From NCBI RefSeq assembly GCF_004777465.1, contig NZ_CP038462.1:434001-498000 (forward strand): DNA of 64,000 nucleotides. Direction: 5' to 3'. The notes under the pieces were generated by a model, which made no database searches, was not told the DNA's origin, and worked only from the letters and a program-made list of their open reading frames with translations. Position 1 is the first letter of the stretch; every line of letters starts with the position of its first letter. Shown here in pieces: positions 51,478 through 62,228 of the stretch. The position numbers and the translations under genes were made by a program. The DNA comes from Nocardioides daphniae. Lineage in GTDB: Bacteria; Actinomycetota; Actinomycetes; Propionibacteriales; Nocardioidaceae.

Positions 51478-52497
51478 GTGACCATCCTTCCCGCAGCGGG
51501 GAGGTCGTCGAGGGACGACCTGCCCGTGCTCCCGCGCCGCATCTCCCGGCGTCCGGTCGGCTCCGACCGGGCGTTCGAGTGGGGCGCCCGCGCCGTCGGC
51601 GCGACCGTGCTCGTCGTCACCGGCGGCATCGGTGCCTTCCTCGCGTGGCAGTCGGTGCCGACCCTCCAGCGCTACGGCTGGAGCTTCTTCACCGAGCAGG
51701 CGTGGGAGCCGGAGGCCGACGTCGTCGGCATGGCGGCCGTGCTGCTCGGCACGGTCCAGGTGGCGGCCGTCGCGATGGCGATCGCCTTCCCGCTCTCGCT
51801 GCTGACCGCTCTCTACATCAGTGAGTACGCCCCCGCGCGGATCCGCGCCACGCTGGTCTCGCTCGTCGACCTGATGGCCGCGGTGCCCTCGATCATCTAC
51901 GGGATGTGGGGCTACTTCCTGGTCATGCCTCACGCCGCGGAGCTCGCGCTGTGGCTGCACCGCACGTTCGGCTGGATCCCCTTCTTCGCGGTCGACTCCG
52001 ACCCGGACGCCGCCGTCTGGGACACCTCCCGCTACATCAGCTCGGCCTTCTGCGCGGGCATCGCGGTGGCGATGATGGTGATGCCGATGGCGTGCGCGGT
52101 GATGCGCCAGGTCTTCTCCCAGACCCCGCCCGGGGAGAAGGAGGCGGCGCTGGCCCTGGGCGCCACCCGCTGGGGCATGATCCGCAGCGTCGTGCTGCCC
52201 TTCGGCCGCGGCGGCATCATCGGTGGCACGATGCTCGGCCTGGGCCGCGCCCTGGGCGAGACCATCGCGGTGCTGCTGATCATCTCGCCCGACTTCGTGA
52301 TGAAGGCGAGCGTCCTCGAGGTCGGCACCAACACCGTCTCGGCACTCATTGCCGGTCGTTTCGGCGACGCCAGCCAGGCCCAGCTCTCCGCCCTGCTCAC
52401 CGCGGGCTTCGTGCTCTTCCTCATCACCCTGGTCGTCAACACGCTGGCGGCCGTGATCGTGAACCGGAGCCGCTCCGGGGCCGGGACGGACGCCTGA
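51478..52497 (+). CDS. pstC: Phosphate ABC transporter permease PstC
   Basis: Inner-membrane permease of the high-affinity Pst phosphate importer, 339 residues, intact, six helices after a hydrophilic N terminus. ATLVSLVDLMAAVPSIIYGM and the EAA loop EKEAALALGATRWGMIRSVV are diagnostic; LGLGRALGETIAVLLI follows. GTG start; the ribosome binding site is weak. The TGATG overlap with pstA indicates coupling. Confidence 0.95.
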   Translation: MTILPAAGRSSRDDLPVLPRRISRRPVGSDRAFEWGARAVGATVLVVTGGIGAFLAWQSVPTLQRYGWSFFTEQAWEPEADVVGMAAVLLGTVQVAAVAMAIAFPLSLLTALYISEYAPARIRATLVSLVDLMAAVPSIIYGMWGYFLVMPHAAELALWLHRTFGWIPFFAVDSDPDAAVWDTSRYISSAFCAGIAVAMMVMPMACAVMRQVFSQTPPGEKEAALALGATRWGMIRSVVLPFGRGGIIGGTMLGLGRALGETIAVLLIISPDFVMKASVLEVGTNTVSALIAGRFGDASQAQLSALLTAGFVLFLITLVVNTLAAVIVNRSRSGAGTDA

Positions 52498-53737
52498 TGA
52501 CGATCCTCACGCCGCCCGGGCCGGGCCCCGAGGCCGCTGCTCCCCCTCGGCAGCGACGCGCGAGGGCCTGGTCCGTGGCACCACCCACCTGCCCACCCGC
52601 GACGAGGCTGCCCCGGCGCCGCTGCCGCGCCCCGGCCTCGGGCGTCCCACCGCCGAGGAGCGGTTCGCCGTGCTGGGCGCCTGGGTGGCCGCCTTCGCGA
52701 TGGCCTTCCTGACCACCCAACGGCTCCTGCCGCTGGGTGGCGTGGCCTGGCTGCTGGTGGCCTGGTTCGTGCTCGGGCTCGTCCTCTCCGGCGTCACCGC
52801 CGCGCTCGTCGGGCGCAAGGTCGACGTCCTCGACCGCGTGGTGCAGGGCGTGGTGACCTCCGGCGCCCTGCTGGTCGGTGCGGCCCTGCTGTCGGTGATG
52901 GTTTTCGTGGTGCTGCGGGGCTGGGGGCCGTTGACCCACCTCAACTTCTACGTCCACGACATGGCCGGCGTCGGGCCCCGCGACGCCCTCGACCGGGGCG
53001 GCGTCGTGCACGCCGTCGTCGGGTCGCTGGTGCAGATGGGCATCGCGATCCTGGTGACGCTGCCGCTGGGCATCGGCACGGCGGTCTTCATGACCGAGGT
53101 CGGCGGGCGGCTCGCCCGGGTCGTCCGCACGATCGTCGAGGCGATGACGGCGCTGCCCTCCATCGTCGCCGGCCTCTTCGTCTACACGGTCCTGGTCGTG
53201 ACGCTCGGCTTCCCGCGCTCCGGCCTGGCCGCCGCGATGGCGCTGAGCGTGATGATGCTCCCGATCATCGCCCGTGCCGCCGACGTGGTGCTGCGCGTCG
53301 TCCCGGGCGGCCTGCGCGAGGCGAGCCTGGCGCTGGGGGCCAGCCGCTGGCGCACCGTGTGGCACGTCGTCCTGCCGACCGCCCGCCCGGGGCTGGCCAC
53401 CGCGTTGATCCTCGGGGTGGCCCGCGGGATCGGCGAGACCAGCCCGGTGCTGCTGACCTCGGGCGTCGCCAACTTCACCGTGCTCAACCCCGGTGACGGG
53501 GTGATGAACTCCCTGCCCCTCTTCATCTTCACCGGCGCGCGAAGCCCCGAGCCGATGATGATCGAGCGTGCCTTCGGCGCCGCCACGGTCCTGCTCGTCC
53601 TGGTGCTGGTGCTCTTCGTCGCCGCCCGTCTGGTGGCCCGCCCCCGTCGGGCCGCCGCCCGCCCCGGCCTCGTACGCCGCTTCGCCGGCCTGCGCCTCAC
53701 CCTTCCTCGTCGTGCCCGCTCCCAGGAGGACTCGTGA
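52497..53737 (+). CDS. pstA: Phosphate ABC transporter permease PstA (frameshifted near N terminus)
   Basis: Second Pst permease, about 413 residues with a long hydrophilic and partly hydrophobic N-terminal extension. Core: EVGGRLARVVRTIVEAMTAL then PSIVAGLF; EAA loop REASLALGASRWRTVWHVVL; GVARGIGETSPVLLTSG. A one-base shift near 52555-52570 separates MTILTPPGPG from the long frame. Extra helices before the permease domain (LGAWVAAFAMAFLTT, WLLVAWFVLGLVLSG) are common in actinobacterial PstA. Overlaps pstC (TGATG) and pstS (GTGA). Confidence 0.92.
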
Positions 53738-55410
53738 CCACCCCCACCCCTCGTACGCGGTCGCTCGCCGCCCGCGCGCTGCTCACCCTCGGCCTGCTCG
53801 TCGGCGCCGTCGCGGGCCCCGCAGCGATCGCTGGCGCGACCCCGACCACCGGCATCGGGAACGACCAGCGCCCGGGTGCGCGGCCGGCGTACGCCCAGAT
53901 CGAGGGGTCGGGGTCGACCTGGTCGGAGGTGATCGTGCAGCAGTGGATCTCCGACGTCGACTCGCTCGGCATGAAGGTCACCTACAACGGTGGCGGCTCC
54001 TCGCAGGGCCGCAAGAACTTCGCCCAGAACGTCACCGACTTCGGCATCTCCGAGATCCCCTACCCGGGCGTCGACGAGTTCGGCAACGCCGACAACGCCG
54101 GTGGGCGCGAGTTCGCCTACCTGCCCGTGGTGGCCGGCGGCACCGCCTTCACCTACCAGCTCAAGATCGGCAACGAGCTGGTCCGCAACCTGCGGCTGTC
54201 GGGGGAGACGCTCGCCAAGATCTTCACCAACAGGATCACCAACTGGAACGACCCGGCGATCACCAAGGACAACAACGGTCGGAAGTTCCCCTCGCTGGCG
54301 ATCACGCCGGTGGTCCGCTCCGACGGCTCCGGCACCACGGCGCAGCTGACCACCTGGATGGACGCTGAGCACGCGGGCCTGTGGCGCCCGTTCTTCGGGC
54401 GGTCGGGCTACACCTCGTACTTCCCTAAGAAGGGCCGGATGATCGGCCAGGCCGGCTCCGACCAGATGATGAACTACATCTCCGGCTTCGCCGGCAACGG
54501 CTCGATCGGCTACGTCGAGTACGCCTACCCGCTCAACAAGAAGTATCCGGTCGTCAAGGTGCTCAACAAGGGCGGCTACTTCGTGGAGCCGACGCAGTAC
54601 AACGTCGCCGTCGCGCTGACCAAGGCCCGGATCAACCAGGACCGGAAGTCCAAGGACTACCTGACGCAGATCCTCACCGACGTCTACCGCTCGACCGACA
54701 AGCGTGCCTACCCGCTGTCGTCGTACTCCTACATGATCATCCCGACCGGGTCGAAGGACCAGCGGATGACGACGTCGAAGCGCCAGACGCTCGGCGACTT
54801 CCTCTACTACTCGCTGTGCGAGGGGCAGTCGAAGGCCGGTCCCTACGGCTACTCGCCACTGCCGCTCAACCTGGTGCAGGCCGCCTTCACGCAGGTGGGG
54901 CGGCTCCAGCAGGCCGACCCGGGCGTCGACCTCAGCAACCGCTCGGTCAGCAAGTGCAACAACCCGACCTTCACCGGCTCCGACCTCAAGCGCAACAAGC
55001 TCGCGGAGATCGCACCCCAGCCCGCCGCGTGCGACGCCGTCGGGCAGGGCCCGTGCGGCACCGCGACCGGCACCGGCAAGCCCAGCACCGATGGGGGTGG
55101 TGGCGCGAGCGGCGACGCTCCCTCGCAGGGCGGCGGCAACGTCCCGTCCGGGGGAGGCGCCACACCGGGGGAGGTGCCGGCCGGGGGAGACGTCGGCTCC
55201 GGCGTCGACCCCACGACCGGCGAGGTGGTCGGGGGCGCCGTGGTCGGCGACGTCGCGGTGAGCGCGACCCCGACCGAGCTCACGGCCGCACGGCCCGGCG
55301 ACGCGACCCCCTTCGCGTGGCTGGCCCTGGCCCAGCTGCTGGCGCTGGTGCTGCTGCCCGGACTCCTCCTGGCCCGACGTGGGCGTCCCTCCGCGGGCGG
55401 TCGTCGATGA
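53734..55410 (+). CDS. pstS: PstS-type phosphate-binding protein with C-terminal membrane anchor
   Basis: Extracytoplasmic phosphate-binding protein of 558 residues. The signal peptide (LTLGLLVGAVAGPAAIAGA) lacks a lipobox Cys. The PBP domain includes IEGSGSTWSEVIVQQWISDV, FGISEIPYPG, LAKIFTNRITNWNDPAI, VRSDGSGTTAQLTTWM and GNGSIGYVEYAYPL, the phosphate-cradle segments. A cysteine-bearing extension, a Gly-rich linker (DGGGGASGDAPSQGGGNVPS) and a final helix FAWLALAQLLALVLLPGLLL then basic RRG follow. So it is held by a C-terminal helix rather than a lipid, unlike classical PstS. Strong ribosome binding site AGGAGGA before GTG 53734. Confidence 0.9.
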   Translation: MTTPTPRTRSLAARALLTLGLLVGAVAGPAAIAGATPTTGIGNDQRPGARPAYAQIEGSGSTWSEVIVQQWISDVDSLGMKVTYNGGGSSQGRKNFAQNVTDFGISEIPYPGVDEFGNADNAGGREFAYLPVVAGGTAFTYQLKIGNELVRNLRLSGETLAKIFTNRITNWNDPAITKDNNGRKFPSLAITPVVRSDGSGTTAQLTTWMDAEHAGLWRPFFGRSGYTSYFPKKGRMIGQAGSDQMMNYISGFAGNGSIGYVEYAYPLNKKYPVVKVLNKGGYFVEPTQYNVAVALTKARINQDRKSKDYLTQILTDVYRSTDKRAYPLSSYSYMIIPTGSKDQRMTTSKRQTLGDFLYYSLCEGQSKAGPYGYSPLPLNLVQAAFTQVGRLQQADPGVDLSNRSVSKCNNPTFTGSDLKRNKLAEIAPQPAACDAVGQGPCGTATGTGKPSTDGGGGASGDAPSQGGGNVPSGGGATPGEVPAGGDVGSGVDPTTGEVVGGAVVGDVAVSATPTELTAARPGDATPFAWLALAQLLALVLLPGLLLARRGRPSAGGRR

Positions 55411-57941
55411 GCGCCGTCGCAGGGCCGCGCGCCCGGCTGCGCGCGCTGGTGGCCGGGCTGGTGCTGGCCGCCTCGGCGGCGGTGGGGCTCGCTCCGACCC
55501 CTCCGGCCCAGGCCGCCGAGGACGGCTGGAGCGCGACGAAGAAGCTCGAGCGCACGTTCGTCAACGGCGCCCGCACGCTCACCGTCGACGAGCGCGACGT
55601 GACCGTCCGCGTCGACCGCACCACCAACCTGCGCGGGCGTGAGCGCGTCGCGATCAGCTGGAGCGGCGCGCACCCCACGGGCGGCCGCTCGGCCAGCCCC
55701 TTCGGCGAGGAGGGGCTGCTCCAGGAGTACCCCGTCGTCGTCCTGCAGTGCCGTGGCGTGGAGAAGCCGAGGGCCGGCCAGGAGAAGCTCTCGCCCGAGA
55801 CCTGCTGGACCTCCAGCCGGATGCAGCGCAGCCAGATGCTGCCCGCAACCAGCGCCCCGTGGCTGCACGACCTGCACGCCTCGCCGGAGCAGCGCGCCCT
55901 CAAGTCGGGCCTGGTCCCGGTGCCGGAGAAGTGCGAGGACGCCGCCTCCTTCGCCACCCGTACGACGCCCTTCCGCGCCGCCGACGGCACGACGTACGCC
56001 TCGTGCACCGCCGACACGATGGCGCCCGAGGCAGCGGTCGGGGCGGCCTTCCCGCCCGCCGAGGTCGCCGCCTTCACCGACGGCAACGGCCGCGGCGAGG
56101 TGCAGTTCGAGGTGCGCAGCAACGTGGAGAACCAGTCGCTGGGCTGCTCCACCGAGGTGGACTGCTCGATCGTGGTCATCCCGATCCAGGGGCTGAGCTG
56201 CGAGGGGCCCGACCCGGAGTGCCGCAAGGGCGGGCAGTTCGCCGCGGGTGAGTCCAACTTCGCCGGGCGCGCCATCGACCTGGCGGTCGCGCCGCACCTG
56301 TGGTGGGCCGAGTCCAACTGGCGCGGCCGCTTCTCGGTGCCGATCAGCTTCGGCCTCCCGCCGGACGCCTGCGACGTGATGGACGACCGCGCCCCCACCG
56401 GCTTCTACGGCTCCGAGCTGCTCAGCCAGGCGGCGCTGCAGTGGTCGCCCGCCTACTGCCTGCGCAAGGACCGCTTCAAGTTCCAGCACAACCGGATGGC
56501 CGACGGCGCCGCCTTCGCGCTGATGGAGAACGGCCAGGCCGTCGCCGCGCTGGTCTCCGGCCGTCACGAGACCACCGGCGCCGACCCCGTCGCGTACGCC
56601 CCGACCGCGGTCACCGGCTTCGCCGTCGGCTACGTCGTCGACCGCCCCGGCAACGCCGGTGAGGTGGGGCAGCTCAAGCTCAACGCCCGCCTGGTCGCCA
56701 AGCTGATCACCCAGTCCTACCCGGCCAGCGACCGGGGCCGCTCACGCCCCGGCCTGGAGAAGAACCCCGTCTCGATCAACCTCGACCCGGAGTTCCGGGC
56801 GCTCAACCCCGGCCTCGACCAGATCGCCCGGGAGTCGGCGGCGACCCTGCTGTCGCTGTCGGAGGAGAGCGACGTGATCACCGCGCTCACCTCCTACGTC
56901 GCGCAGGACCCCGACGCCCGCGCCTTCGTCGCCGGCACACCCGACCGGTGGGGCATGCGGGTCAACCCCGCGTACGAGGACATCTCGCTGCCGCGCGCCG
57001 AGTGGCCGCTGCTCGACGACTACGTGCCGCCGACCAACCAGGAGTGCTACCAGCAGAACCCGGCGCCCTACCTCGGCCAGGTCGCGGCACCGGTCACCTC
57101 GCTGCGCAAGATCGCCGAGGCGGTCCTCGACGGCTGGCCCAACGTGCAGACCAAGTGCGAGCGCGCCACCACCTCCGACCCCTGGAAGATCGGCCGCGTC
57201 GACCGCCAGGGCGTCGGCACCCGCTTCGTGCTCGGTGTCGTCGGCCTCGGTGACGCCGCCCGCTTCGGGCTGCGCTCCGCCTCGCTGGCGACCAGGGGTG
57301 GCACGTACGTCGCCCCGACGACCTCAGCGATGAACAGGGCCGTCGCGCTGGCCACCCCCGCGGACGACGGCACCTCGCCCTTCGCGATGGACATGGCGAC
57401 GCTGGTCAAGGCGCGGCAGGCCTACCCCGGCACGCTCGTCGTCTACACGGCCGCCCGGCTGCGGGGCGTCGGCAAGGCCGACGCCGCCAAGGTCGCCCAG
57501 TTCATCCGGGTCTCGACCTCCGAGGGTCAGCGGGCCGGCCGCGGCAACGGCGACCTCCCGTCGGGCTTCGTCCCGATCCTGGCGCAGGGCACCACCGCGC
57601 GGCTGCACGCCCAGGCCCAGCGGGTGGCGCGCCTGGTCGAGGCCCAGGGCGGCGCCCCGAAGAGCTCGCAGGCGCCGGCGCCCACCACCGGGGGACCGGG
57701 CAGCGCGCCCACCGGAAGCAGCGGCGTGCCGGACCAGGCCCTGCCGGAGGTCCCGCTGGCACAGGCCGACACCCCGAAGGCGGACGCACCGGGGGAGCAG
57801 GTGGTGACCATGCCGCCGACCGCCCGGGTCTCCTCCGGCGTCGCCTCGCGCCTGCTGCCGCTGCTCCTGGTCGGTGCCCTGCTGGCCGGGCTCGTCGGCG
57901 CCGGCAGCCGACTGCTGCTCACCGTGCGGGGGCAGCGATGA
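55407..57941 (+). CDS. Large membrane-anchored surface protein, PstS/PBP-like C-terminal region
   Basis: Exported protein of 844 residues, intact. The signal peptide ends TPPAQA. The first half is a Cys-rich beta domain (VVVLQCRGVEKP, ETCWTSSRMQRSQ, VENQSLGCSTEVDCSIVVIP, LSCEGPDPECRKGG). The second half resembles a PBP: VTGFAVGYVVDRPGNAGEVG, LKLNARLVAKLITQSYP, and SLRKIAEAVLDGWP echo the PstS KLNxxxLAKIF region. A Pro/Ala linker and a C-terminal helix (LLPLLLVGALLAGLVGAGSR) anchor it. ATGA overlaps on both sides place it firmly in the pst operon. Whether it binds phosphate or a phosphorylated polymer is not known. Confidence 0.7.
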   Translation: MSAVAGPRARLRALVAGLVLAASAAVGLAPTPPAQAAEDGWSATKKLERTFVNGARTLTVDERDVTVRVDRTTNLRGRERVAISWSGAHPTGGRSASPFGEEGLLQEYPVVVLQCRGVEKPRAGQEKLSPETCWTSSRMQRSQMLPATSAPWLHDLHASPEQRALKSGLVPVPEKCEDAASFATRTTPFRAADGTTYASCTADTMAPEAAVGAAFPPAEVAAFTDGNGRGEVQFEVRSNVENQSLGCSTEVDCSIVVIPIQGLSCEGPDPECRKGGQFAAGESNFAGRAIDLAVAPHLWWAESNWRGRFSVPISFGLPPDACDVMDDRAPTGFYGSELLSQAALQWSPAYCLRKDRFKFQHNRMADGAAFALMENGQAVAALVSGRHETTGADPVAYAPTAVTGFAVGYVVDRPGNAGEVGQLKLNARLVAKLITQSYPASDRGRSRPGLEKNPVSINLDPEFRALNPGLDQIARESAATLLSLSEESDVITALTSYVAQDPDARAFVAGTPDRWGMRVNPAYEDISLPRAEWPLLDDYVPPTNQECYQQNPAPYLGQVAAPVTSLRKIAEAVLDGWPNVQTKCERATTSDPWKIGRVDRQGVGTRFVLGVVGLGDAARFGLRSASLATRGGTYVAPTTSAMNRAVALATPADDGTSPFAMDMATLVKARQAYPGTLVVYTAARLRGVGKADAAKVAQFIRVSTSEGQRAGRGNGDLPSGFVPILAQGTTARLHAQAQRVARLVEAQGGAPKSSQAPAPTTGGPGSAPTGSSGVPDQALPEVPLAQADTPKADAPGEQVVTMPPTARVSSGVASRLLPLLLVGALLAGLVGAGSRLLLTVRGQR

Positions 57942-58882
57942 CGACCCTCGCCGAGCCGGGTGCGACCCAGTCGTCGGCAGGGTCGTCGGCAGGGTCGTCG
58001 GCAGGGTCGTCGGCCGCGCCGTCGCAGCCTCCCACCCAGCTGTCGCCTCCCGCGGAGCGGACCGCCCTGGTCGTCTCGACCGCAGCGACGGTGCTCCTGC
58101 TGGTGACCGCCTGGGCGCTGACCCAGATGCTCTTCCTCGGCGCGCTCAGCCAGCAGCGGGCCCAGGCCACGCTGTACGACGACTTCCGCGCCCAGCTCGC
58201 CGCCGCCACCGCCCCGGTCGGGCCGGTCGTCGATGTCGGCGAGCCGGTGGCGCTGCTGCGGGTGCCGCGCCTGGGCATCGAGCAGGTCGTCGTCGAGGGC
58301 ACCGCCTCGGGCGACTTGCTGCGGGGCCCCGGCCACCAGCGCAACACCGTGCTCCCCGGCCAGGTCGGCACGTCCGTCGTCGCCGGCCGCGCGACGACGT
58401 ACGGAGGCCCGTTCGCCACCCTGGGTGAGCTGACGGCGGGGGACGCCGTGGTCGCGGTCACCGCGCAGGGCACCACCAAGTTCCGGGTGAGCGGCGTACG
58501 ACGTGCCGGCGACCCGCTGCCGCAGCCGCGTCCCGACGGGGCCGCGCGCCTCGTCCTGGTCACCGCCGAGGGGCAGGGGCGGTTGGGTGCGCTGTCGCCG
58601 GGCGAGGTCATCCATGTCGACGCCGAGGCGCAGAAGGGCCTGGGCGCCCCCGCGGGCCTGCCTGCCGCGGTGCCCGACTCCGAGCAGCCGATGGGCACCG
58701 AGCAGACGGCGTGGCCGTTGCTGACCCTCTGCCTCGGACTTCTCGTGGCGATCACCACCGGGGTGGTCGTTGCTCGCCAGCGCTGGAGTGCAGCGCTGGT
58801 CTGGGTGGTCGCGGCTCCCGTCGTGATCGCCAGCGCATGGGTCACCACCGACGTGGTGATGCGTGTGCCCAACCTGTTGTGA
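57938..58882 (+). CDS. Sortase-fold membrane protein lacking both catalytic residues
   Basis: Membrane protein of 314 residues. An N-terminal low-complexity Ser/Ala/Gly region and one helix (LVVSTAATVLLLVTAWALTQ) precede a sortase domain: VALLRVPRLGIEQVVVEGTA, LLRGPGHQRNTVLPGQVG, VVAGRATTYGGPFATLGELT. Class E/D sortases have AGH and TLxTC; here Arg151 replaces the His and LVLVTAEG (Ala210) replaces the Cys. Two C-terminal helices (LLTLCLGLLVAITTGVVV, ALVWVVAAPVVIASAWVT) follow. The frame is intact, so the losses are not sequencing shifts. Probably a scaffold or binding protein rather than a transpeptidase. ATGA overlap with the upstream gene. Confidence 0.8.
   Translation: MTTLAEPGATQSSAGSSAGSSAGSSAAPSQPPTQLSPPAERTALVVSTAATVLLLVTAWALTQMLFLGALSQQRAQATLYDDFRAQLAAATAPVGPVVDVGEPVALLRVPRLGIEQVVVEGTASGDLLRGPGHQRNTVLPGQVGTSVVAGRATTYGGPFATLGELTAGDAVVAVTAQGTTKFRVSGVRRAGDPLPQPRPDGAARLVLVTAEGQGRLGALSPGEVIHVDAEAQKGLGAPAGLPAAVPDSEQPMGTEQTAWPLLTLCLGLLVAITTGVVVARQRWSAALVWVVAAPVVIASAWVTTDVVMRVPNLL
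57971..58006 (+). repeat. 12-bp tandem repeat, three perfect copies (TCGTCGGCAGGG)
   Basis: Copies at 57971, 57983 and 57995, with a partial fourth at 58007, encode the SSAG repeats in the N-terminal tail of the sortase-fold protein. In-frame slippage would only lengthen the linker. Confidence 0.95.
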
Positions 58883-58919: not shown

Positions 58920-60500
58920 ATGTCCGTTCGCAGGTTGTTCGCCGGCGTGGCCGCCACGTCGGTCCTCGTCTCGACGGCGGCCCTCGTGGCGCCGGCCCAG
59001 GCCGACCCCGCCTTCACCCCCGTCGCCAGCGACGTCGTCGGCGCCGGCTCCGACACCTCCATGTACGCCCTGAGCTACCTGGCCGAGGGCCACGGCGGCC
59101 TCACCGGCTACAACGCCGGGCGTACGACGGGACGCCTCGTCTCCTTCGACGCCAAGACCGTCGACGCGACCGGCACCCAGACCAACTCGGCCACGGTGAC
59201 CCTGGTCCAGGGCGCCAGCCCGATCACCCGTCCCAACGGATCGGGCGCGGGCAAGAGCCTGCTGCACGGCGCCGGCAACAACCCCGACGTCGACTACGCC
59301 CGCTCCTCCTCCGGCCTCAACGCCGCGGAGAAGTCGGCCAACCTCCAGGCCTTCCCGTTCGCCAAGGACACCCTCGGCATGGCGGTGGCCGCCACCTCCA
59401 ACGCCCCGGTGACCCTCACCCCGGCCCAGATCGTCGGCATCTACGCCGGCGACATCACCGACTGGAGCGCCGTCGGCGGCAAGGCCGGCACCATCGTCCC
59501 GCTCATCCCGCAGGCCGGCTCCGGCACGCGCTCCTTCTTCGAGGGCGAGCTGACCACCATGAACAGCGGCGTGAAGGTGACGCTGAGCAAGGCGGTCAAG
59601 GAGGTCCAGGAGCACGACGACTCGCCCGTCAAGGACGACCCCAACGCCGTCGCGCCCTTCTCCGTCGGTCGTGCCGGCCTGCTCGGCACCCTGCGCGTGA
59701 CGAAGGGCTTCGAGGCCGCCCGCGCCCTCTACAACGTGGTCCGTCAGGCCGACGTCGCCAAGCCCGAGATCACCTCGATCTTCGGCCCGACCGGCTTCGT
59801 CTGCTCCCCGGCCGCCGCACCCCTGATCGCCGACGCCGGCTTCGAGCAGCTCCTCAGCCAGGCCGAGGGTGGCGCCTGCGGCGTCGCGACCCAGGACGCG
59901 CCCAGCCTCGCCACGGCGCTCGTGGAGACCAGCACCACCGTCGCCGCGGTCTCCAAGGTCGCCGGCGCGCTGGAGATCACCGCCACCGTCGGTGGCGGCG
60001 GTGCACTGAAGCCGCAGGGCCTGGTCGAGTTCACCGTCGACGGTCGTGACGCTGGCACCGCGCTGCTGAGCGGCGGCAGGGCCACCCGCACCGTCACCGG
60101 CCTCTCGGCCGGCACCCACACGGTCAAGGCCACCTTCGTGGCCGACGAGGGCACCGTCTTCTCCGGCTCGGTGAGCAGCGAGGGCACCTTCACCGTCGCC
60201 GGCCCCAAGGCACCGGTCCTGGTGAAGTCCAGCCTCAAGGAGACCTTCAAGGCCACCAACGCCAAGGGCAAGCGCGCCAAGGGCGCCGTGGTGGTCACCC
60301 TGGCCAACAAGAAGAAGGCGACCGGCACGGTCGTCATCCGCGACGGCAAGAAGGTCGTCGCGAAGGGCAAGGTGAAGAACGGTCGCGTGACGCTCACCCT
60401 GAAGAAGCTCGCCAAGGGCAAGCGCACCCTCGTCGCCACCTACACCGGCCCCACGTCCGTGAAGGGCTCGACGCTGCGCTTCGTCATCCGCCAGCGCTGA
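58920..60500 (+). CDS. Second PstS-like phosphate-binding protein with Ig-like domain
   Basis: Exported protein of 526 residues, intact. The signal peptide ends APAQA with no lipobox. The PBP domain shows [59 protein letters not shown] and [17 protein letters not shown]. An Ig-like/Big_3_5-type domain ([40 protein letters not shown]) and a Lys-rich C-terminal unit follow, with no anchor helix. RBS AAAGGA 9 nt before ATG 58920. The only gene of the locus separated by clear spacers on both sides, so it may be expressed separately or more strongly. Confidence 0.85.
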
Positions 60501-60610: not shown

Positions 60611-61480
60611 ATGACGCTCGACGACCGCACCACCGTCCTCCCGCCCGTGCCGCCGCAGGCGCCTGCCGCCCCCGGTGCGCCGCTCGACGGTGCTGACGGA
60701 CGCTCGCTGGCCTCCCTCGAGGCGCGTGAGGTCACTGCCTGGTTCGGCGACCGGAAGGTCCTCGACCGGGTCTCGCTCACGATGCCCGCGGGGCGGATCA
60801 CGGCGCTGATCGGGCCGTCCGGCTGCGGCAAGTCGACCTTCCTGCGCATCCTCAACCGGATGCACGAGCTGGTGCCGTCGGCCGCGCTGGCCGGTGAGGT
60901 GCTGCTCGACGGCGACGACCTCTACGACCCGCAGTTCAAGCTGACCGATGCCCGCCGTGCGGTGGGGATGGTCTTCCAGAAGCCCAACCCCTTCCCGGCG
61001 ATGTCGATCCGTGAGAACGTCCTGGCCGGCCTGAAGCTGACCGGCACCAGGGCCTCGCGCAGCGACAAGGACGACCTCGTGGAGCAGTGCCTGACCCGCG
61101 GCGGGCTGTGGAACGAGGTGAAGGACCGGCTCGACGCGCCCGGCGGCGGGCTCTCCGGTGGGCAGCAGCAGCGGCTCTGCATCGCACGCTCGCTGGCCAT
61201 CAGGCCGAAGGTGCTGCTGATGGACGAACCGTGCTCCGCGCTGGACCCGACCTCCACTCGCGTCATCGAGGAGACGATGAAAGAGTTGGCCCAGGAGGTC
61301 ACCATCGTCATCGTGACGCACAACATGCAGCAGGCCGCGCGGGTCTCCGACCAGTGCGCCTTCTTCCTCGCTGCCCACGGCACCCCCGGAGTCATCGTCG
61401 AGCACGGTGACACCGAGGCGATGTTCTCCCGTCCGCGCGACCAGCGCACCGCCGACTACGTGCACGGTCGGTTCGGGTGA
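60611..61480 (+). CDS. pstB: Phosphate ABC transporter ATP-binding protein PstB
   Basis: ATPase of the Pst importer, 289 residues, intact. Walker [21 protein letters not shown] (with the PstB-typical NRMH), [20 protein letters not shown], signature [17 protein letters not shown], Walker [14 protein letters not shown] and the His switch in [19 protein letters not shown]. The N-terminal Pro/Ala tail of about 35 residues is longer than usual. The stop overlaps the transglycosylase start (GTGA). Confidence 0.96.
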
Positions 61481-62228
61481 GGGCTGGCGTCGCCCTCACG
61501 GTGGTGGCCGCGCTCGTGGGGCTCGGCGCCACCGGCGTGCTGGCCCAGGAGTTCCTGGCCGACCGCTCGGCCTCGGTGACCGGGCAGCAGGTCCGGGCGG
61601 GCGCCGCCCTGCCCGTCACCCCGCAGGTGAGCCGTCCGGTCGCCGCCTCGCGCGGCGGGAGGGGCCGGTTGCCCCAGGTCGACGCGAGCTGGGCCGCACG
61701 GGCCGCGCAGGCCACCGGGATCCCGGTGCCGGCCGTGACGGCGTACGCCCGGGCGACGCTCGCTGCCCCGAAGCGCTGCGAGCTCGGCTGGACCACCCTG
61801 GCCGGCATTGGCTGGGTCGAGTCGCAGCACGGCACGATCGGCGGTCGTACGCTCGGCCGCGACGGCCGCTCCTCCTCGCCGATCCTCGGCCGGCCCTCGA
61901 CGGCGGTGAGGGCCTGGCGGCGATCCGCTCCACGGCGCAGACCGCCGCGCTGCACGGCAACCCCACCTGGGACCACGCCATGGGGCCGATGCAGTTCATC
62001 CCGTCGACCTGGAGCCGGTTCAGCCGCGACGGCGACGGCGACGGCGTGAAGGACCCGCACGACATCGACGACGCCGCCGCGTCCGCTGCCGCCTACCTCT
62101 GCTTCGACGGCCACGACCTGACGACCTCGTCGGGCTGGAACGCCGCGATCTTCTCCTACAACCACGACAACGGCTACGTGAACGCGGTGTACGCCGCGGC
62201 GAACCGTTACGGGCTCGCCGTCCAGTGA
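61477..62228 (+). CDS. Secreted lytic transglycosylase (frameshifted)
   Basis: Exported muramidase-like enzyme of about 250 residues, MltB/SLT type. The N-terminal helix [20 protein letters not shown] is a signal or anchor. Catalytic Glu115 lies in [58 protein letters not shown] and [20 protein letters not shown] follow. One base is missing near 61895 (SSPILGRP, then [13 protein letters not shown]). GTGA overlap with pstB places a peptidoglycan-cleaving enzyme in the phosphate operon, perhaps to make room for or process the surface proteins. Confidence 0.87.

Follow-up and report, generated by a model that had tools for sequence, protein, structure and literature searches.

A Sortase-Fold Protein Lacking the Catalytic Triad Is Conserved within a Second Pst-Type Operon of Actinomycetota

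Results

Loss of the catalytic residues from a conserved sortase fold

This work concerns a gene of Nocardioides daphniae (NCBI RefSeq assembly GCF_004777465.1, contig NZ_CP038462.1) in the 64,000 nucleotides from position 434,001 to 498,000 of the forward strand, the whole of which is referred to here as the window. The window carries a second Pst operon with the order pstC-pstA-pstS-X-sortase-PBP2-pstB, in which pstC, pstA, pstB and a PstS gene stand together as in a Pst phosphate ATP-binding cassette (ABC) importer. The sortase-like gene, whose ATG overlaps the stop of gene X (ATGA), encodes a membrane protein that has kept the fold of sortases, enzymes that attach proteins to the bacterial wall, and lost the catalytic residues, and that we call the pseudosortase.

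The initial annotation, made from the letters of the sequence, regarded the domain as sortase-like, and this is borne out by a match to Pfam Sortase (PF04203; E-value 3.8e-14, 52.9 bits against a cut-off of 26.6) that places the protein in the superfamily, and by fold matches in the PDB; we therefore dropped chance resemblance as an explanation. The nearest curated NCBIfam class is class E (NF033747), at 77.6 bits far below its cut-off of 160, and the window protein falls below the cut-off of every NCBIfam sortase profile. Irrespective of cut-off, class E is the commonest profile match for 88/88 members of set A3. The open reading frame, the Pfam match, the structure model, the PDB fold matches and hydropathy together give a layout of an N-terminal tail, which would be cytoplasmic, a first transmembrane helix (TM1, residues ~42-71), the sortase barrel (~98-235), two further helices, TM2 (~257-281) and TM3 (~282-308), and a C-terminal -RVPNLL.

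Relatives were collected by whole-protein searches of 198 genomes of the Nocardioidaceae and 197 genomes of the class, and by a scan of named genomes with two patterns, from which the best 80 of 111 relatives were kept. Fetching part of the matches gave 159 rows in which position 151 is Arg or Lys, besides 14 that carry both His and Cys and serve as controls; the 159 had been de-duplicated on one stretch, and setting aside 4 remaining repeats leaves 155 sequences distinct over the domain. The named members include Nocardioides, Aeromicrobium, Mumia, Cellulomonas, Motilibacter, Dactylosporangium, Phytohabitans, Plantactinospora, Agromyces and Microbacterium, together with a metagenome-assembled member of the Acidimicrobiaceae, so that the family extends past the Nocardioidaceae to other families and to other classes of the phylum. 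When a distant member served as query against 198 genomes of the phylum, 6 of them had a match at E 1e-20. Four loci fetched from outside the class, which are not counted among the 155, all lie beside pst genes; read by eye, their residue 151 is Arg and their residue 210 is Ala or Ser. We consider the existence of a pseudosortase family near certain.

Alignment to class E sortases confirmed Arg151 at the catalytic His position and Ala210 at the Cys position, as originally proposed; the proposal that both catalytic residues are lost was sound for these two and incomplete, because the third, Arg, is replaced as well, by Val224. The corresponding residues of Streptomyces coelicolor SrtE1 are His251, Cys320 and Arg329, with Tyr229 as the substrate tyrosine, according to the passages of PMC5148588 that deal with them. 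That tyrosine, in the beta3/beta4 loop, is Gln134 in the window protein; position 134 is Tyr or Phe in 0/155 relatives, and 7 Tyr, 5 Phe and 2 Ile in the 14 controls. All 14 controls keep His, Cys and Arg. Position 151 is basic in every one of the 155 relatives (146 Arg, 9 Lys). Position 210 is Ala in 112 and Ser in 28, less often Gly (10), Thr (3) or Val (2), and never Cys; at position 224 Val (84), Ala (31) and Thr (25) prevail and Arg is absent. Such uniformity speaks against a chance observation in the window gene. The anticipated conservation of an Arg/Ala pair thus holds for the basic residue and only in part for Ala210. No row among the 159 and the 14 has His without Cys or Cys without His, and of homologues that keep either residue there were none (0/159 rows, 0/4 further loci).

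Ranked by conservation among 132 domain positions, residue 151 stands 19th, 210 stands 53rd and 224 stands 85th. The His place has received a new, fixed basic residue, and the Cys and Arg places have drifted; since 151 is fixed while the other two drift, the replacement appears to have been fixed by selection and not by decay. A single transition separates CGC, the codon for Arg151, from the His codon CAC.

No alternative Cys fills the site, because the ectodomain of the window protein contains none and only 1/155 relatives has any at columns 90-235; a hidden nucleophile of this kind, absent from 154/155, was dropped. The retained fold, and the Ser found at position 210 in 28/155 relatives, might suggest an enzyme that works by another chemistry here. 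We think this very improbable, as the remaining residues at 210 are mostly Ala, with Gly, Thr and Val besides, 224 is never Arg, and no nucleophile is conserved.

R151, Q177, R188 and D228 are among the conserved domain positions, and Arg188 (151/155) and Arg204 (147/155) are both among the better-conserved positions and variable in the 14 controls. In the C-terminal transmembrane part, Trp289 (152/155) and Pro311 (153/155) are near-invariant. The C-terminus itself (window positions 58860-58879) is conserved, mostly as R-L-L-P-N-L, with LPN within the last 8 residues in 132/155; the distant relatives L281 and L282 have the LPxT-like LPST instead. One reading of these residues is that the pseudosortase is a ligand sensor, its dead site having become an anion pocket in which Arg/Lys151, and perhaps Arg188, would bind phosphate, pyrophosphate or a carboxylate, with the signal passing to the channel through TM2-TM3. 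The conserved basic residues and the two extra helices with their Trp and Pro are consistent with it, whereas strand order would place Arg204 at the far end of strand 7. We regard a sensor as unlikely, if the most serious of the alternatives.

Selection and origin

The view that the frame is open and the protein a selected pseudo-enzyme is strongly supported. The reading frame is intact in the window gene and in the relatives, so that we dropped a frameshift or annotation artefact; the exception is Nocardioides ungokensis (L187), where the whole pst locus is split into several frames, likely by assembly errors, and from which a fragment of the broken gene (L187_2) was left out of the 159 rows. 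Over 87 close pairs, drawn from 95 sequences and sharing some of them, the ratio of nonsynonymous to synonymous substitution rates (dN/dS) has a median of 0.24 and a maximum of 0.36, and the pseudosortase is under purifying selection. A decaying relic without function would account for the drift at the Cys and Arg positions, but is contradicted by these ratios, by the open frames, by the fixed residue 151 and by the co-occurrence with gene X described below; we find it scarcely credible and rejected it.

In a tree of 68 representative pseudosortase rows and the 14 controls, a single branch (100/99) divides the two groups, although the bootstrap had not settled; the same split was found with 37 and 14 rows. 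A single loss of the triad is the simplest reading of this tree, which has no outgroup, and not a proof. Among the first branches of the pseudosortase clade is the pst-linked L282 (9288-10157), from outside the class, which reads GRRTTYGAPF and LTTSNPEYLASERLVV: by eye, His and Cys are gone and an Arg is apparently kept nine residues past the Cys place. L282 is likely a transitional form, representing an early stage of triad loss.

Linkage to pst genes

The pseudosortase was initially placed among phosphate-binding surface proteins, and both gene order and co-occurrence with X support this. A PstA, PstB or PstC match above 150 bits lies in the fetched stretch of 148/159 rows, in the Nocardioidaceae and beyond. 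In ten further rows, most of them short stretches and one of them the short locus of the window itself (L002), the neighbours are limited to X, PBP2 or PstS, and a single row (L127, at a contig end) lacks any pst-type neighbour. By the same measure 0/14 controls, on shorter stretches of 5-11 kb, have pst neighbours; weaker PstB matches in four control stretches, L141-L144 (57-78 bits, 25-30% identity), were taken as other ABC ATPases. Among the 198 family genomes, a search for X that was blind to the pseudosortase found it in 58, identical to the 58 with a full-length pseudosortase (a match above 100 bits reaching residue 307 or beyond; the next matches, at 74 bits, are partial). The Fisher p of 1.6e-51 for this co-occurrence ignores kinship and is not to be read as a probability. 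Genomic linkage makes the pseudosortase a candidate component of the Pst complex.

Two gene orders are common: that of the window, and another that opens with X, PBP2 and further proteins and has the pseudosortase directly before pstB. In Motilibacter, which has the latter, one intervening protein is Ig-like; in this order, the protein at L205 6466-7956, with a bacterial Ig-like domain (Big_3_5, 60.6 bits), lies between PBP2 and the pseudosortase. The position directly before pstB, together with the conservation of TM2, TM3 and the C-terminal L-P-N, would suit a channel assembly factor whose three helices stabilise PstC-PstA and whose sortase domain is a mere spacer. R151, Q177, R188 and D228 are, however, conserved beyond the needs of a spacer, and we hold this role to be rather unlikely.

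In fifteen congeners that are not among the 58, the pst locus is a plain pstS-C-A-B, and X, PBP2 and the pseudosortase have no match there. Their PstS proteins have a hydrophobic C-terminal end in no case and a plausible lipobox in 8, as judged by a pattern run on loosely placed starts; a ninth match (L264) in upstream sequence was left uncounted, and 6 show none in the stretch inspected. A close match of the canonical PstA coexists with the second Pst operon in 18/20 genomes tested. In N. daphniae a canonical-type PstA, 71% identical to that of a congener, is encoded at G000:C1:528629-529528, ~30 kb past the end of the window.

The tethered binding proteins and their linkers

The features of the locus are collected in Table 1. 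From the RSDGSGTT of its PstS, the operon is predicted to transport phosphate. The window PstS has a C-terminal hydrophobic helix followed by a basic tail, with VDPTTG in the linker (~residues 492-496), and no lipobox was seen in it. At the C-terminus, 102/104 PstS and 86/86 X homologues carry a hydrophobic 19-residue stretch with a mean hydropathy >1.6; a lipobox pattern within the first 45 residues occurs in 5/104 tethered PstS, so that the split from canonical PstS is imperfect. The RxDxSGT motif, found in 80/104 PstS, is present in 1/86 X homologues and missing from the other 85. Over residues 328-750, the part covered by the structure comparison and lying past the N-terminal part (~37-325), X has a PstS fold without this motif, and it is possibly a second 'pseudo' protein of the operon. 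PBP2 is presumably secreted.

Table 1. Features of the second Pst operon and catalytic positions of the pseudosortase (window coordinates).
Feature	Coordinates	Strand	Basis or remark
pstC	51478..52497	+	start inferred at GTG 51478; open reading frame, sequence, homologues in order
pstA	52670..53737	+	open reading frame, homologues in order
pstS	53734..55410	+	PBP_like_2 1.3e-44; TIGR00975 186.7 bits; RSDGSGTT motif
gene X	55407..57941	+	844 aa; N-terminal domain, PstS-fold domain (326-748), linker, C-terminal transmembrane helix
pseudosortase	57938..58882	+	ATG start, 314 aa, no internal stop
Arg151, codon CGC	58388..58390	+	catalytic His position, by alignment
Ala210, codon GCC	58565..58567	+	catalytic Cys position, by alignment
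Val224, codon GTC	58607..58609	+	catalytic Arg position (SrtE1 Arg329), by alignment
PBP2	58920..60500	+	start inferred at ATG 58920; binding protein-like and bacterial Ig-like domain; PBP_like_2 2.5e-14, Big_3_5 1.8e-16
pstB	60611..61480	+	ATPase; TIGR00972 340.2 bits, cut-off 343.2

Downstream, a lytic transglycosylase is encoded at 61407-62228, with SLT_2 in frame 61407-62225 only and the N-terminal part seemingly in another frame (61477-62049), a possible frameshift or sequencing error. A phosphate-regulon (PHO) box was considered and dropped: across the window 4 matches were found where shuffling predicts 5.4, none convincing; one lies upstream of pstC with 2 mismatches.

The PstS and X linkers are of low complexity, and before the X helix Thr is present in 94% and Ser in 86%. 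DPxTG occurs in the linkers of 74/104 PstS tails, where shuffling leads one to expect 0.7% per tail, and in 1/86 X tails. The general form xPxTG, for which there is no shuffled baseline, is found in 83/104 PstS and 15/86 X tails, and LPxTG in 0/104 and 2/86. The genome of N. daphniae has no PF04203 match besides the pseudosortase and no Gram_pos_anchor match, a profile that may miss LAXTG proteins; no ordinary sortase pathway was thus detected for the pseudosortase to serve. Some family genomes do hold both kinds of protein, for example G158 with a pseudosortase (L040) and a His/Cys sortase (L143), which could suggest a role as helper or decoy alongside a catalytic sortase of the same cell. 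Given the profile results in the window's genome, where this role was dropped, and a gene order with pst, we consider it highly doubtful.

Discussion

Our results establish dead sortases as a conserved family linked to an alternative phosphate importer, one whose binding proteins are tethered to the membrane, and it is a new, non-catalytic family that joins a known fold to a known transporter class. We give about an even chance to the interpretation that the pseudosortase is a non-catalytic membrane scaffold that docks the tethered phosphate-binding proteins, and a putative docking or assembly role, as first suggested from the sequence, remains plausible. The triad of His, Cys and Arg disappeared from this lineage of sortase-fold membrane proteins, with a single loss as the simplest reading, and the protein was retained as a constant component of a second Pst-type importer, whose binding proteins PstS and X are anchored by membrane helices at their C-termini. 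In this model the groove that once took up the substrate, with a basic residue fixed at the His place, may now form a docking site that does not cleave, gathering the tethered binding proteins, perhaps via their linkers, next to the PstC-PstA channel. Docking of PstS or X is the predicted role, and because the sortase groove is a peptide-binding groove, we prefer docking through the linkers.

In a more specific version of this proposal, the groove would act as a reader that binds, and never cuts, the xPxTG (mostly DPxTG) motif in the linker of tethered PstS. If true, 'recognition without ligation' would array phosphate-binding proteins around the second Pst channel across Actinomycetota. We think this version distinctly unlikely, since 30/104 PstS tails lack DPxTG, among them one broken reading frame and one record with a gap, and since the ~30 residues between the motif and the membrane set it apart from a genuine sorting signal.

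These motif counts also weigh against the scaffold interpretation as a whole, as do several other points. [LM]PxT is present in only 36/86 X tails, and the second gene order puts further proteins, at least one of them Ig-like, between PBP2 and the pseudosortase, so that its partners may be other than PstS and X. The AlphaFold models are of single chains only. The control stretches, at 5-11 kb, are shorter than the median of 16.8 kb, and generally 11 candidates (pseudosortase) or 4 (X) were scored per genome, making absences less firm than presences. The relatives were gathered by similarity to the pseudosortase itself, and the 14 controls were chosen from many weaker, partial matches of the whole-protein searches. 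Finally, one of the two patterns used on named genomes requires Arg135, which is Pro in 12/14 controls, and the named set could therefore hardly include active sortases; this bias is absent from the whole-protein searches.

The family makes testable the use to which a transpeptidase fold is put once catalysis is gone, and it carries a warning for annotation, in that genes matching the Sortase profile at these loci are not sortases. Within open-access full texts, subscription papers being outside this scope, we could recognise no paper describing a pst-linked inactive sortase. The nearest reports, as far as their relevant passages extend, concern a degenerate cleavage motif and not a sortase (PMC8615915), a laboratory-made mutant (PMC3516528), and PstS glycosylation alongside a separate SrtE-like gene (PMC5882110).

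The closest known enzymes with which the pseudosortase can be compared are the class E sortases, SrtE1 of S. coelicolor (5cuw) and SrtE of S. avermitilis (5go5). In contrast to these, the pseudosortase has His251, Cys320, Arg329 and Tyr229 replaced, bears two added C-terminal transmembrane helices and resides at a pst locus, and no sorting-signal substrates were found for it. For SrtF of Corynebacterium diphtheriae (5uus), the alignment shows GH where the catalytic His belongs and TTC at the Cys place, the latter in a second segment that is weak. Class C (pilin) sortases, which have a C-terminal transmembrane segment, share the fold with the pseudosortase, although the triad is absent from the latter. 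As in canonical PstSCAB systems, the second operon encodes PstC, PstA, PstB and a PstS with RSDGSGTT, but it differs from them in gene order, in the C-terminal membrane helix of its PstS, and in the addition of X, the pseudosortase and PBP2.

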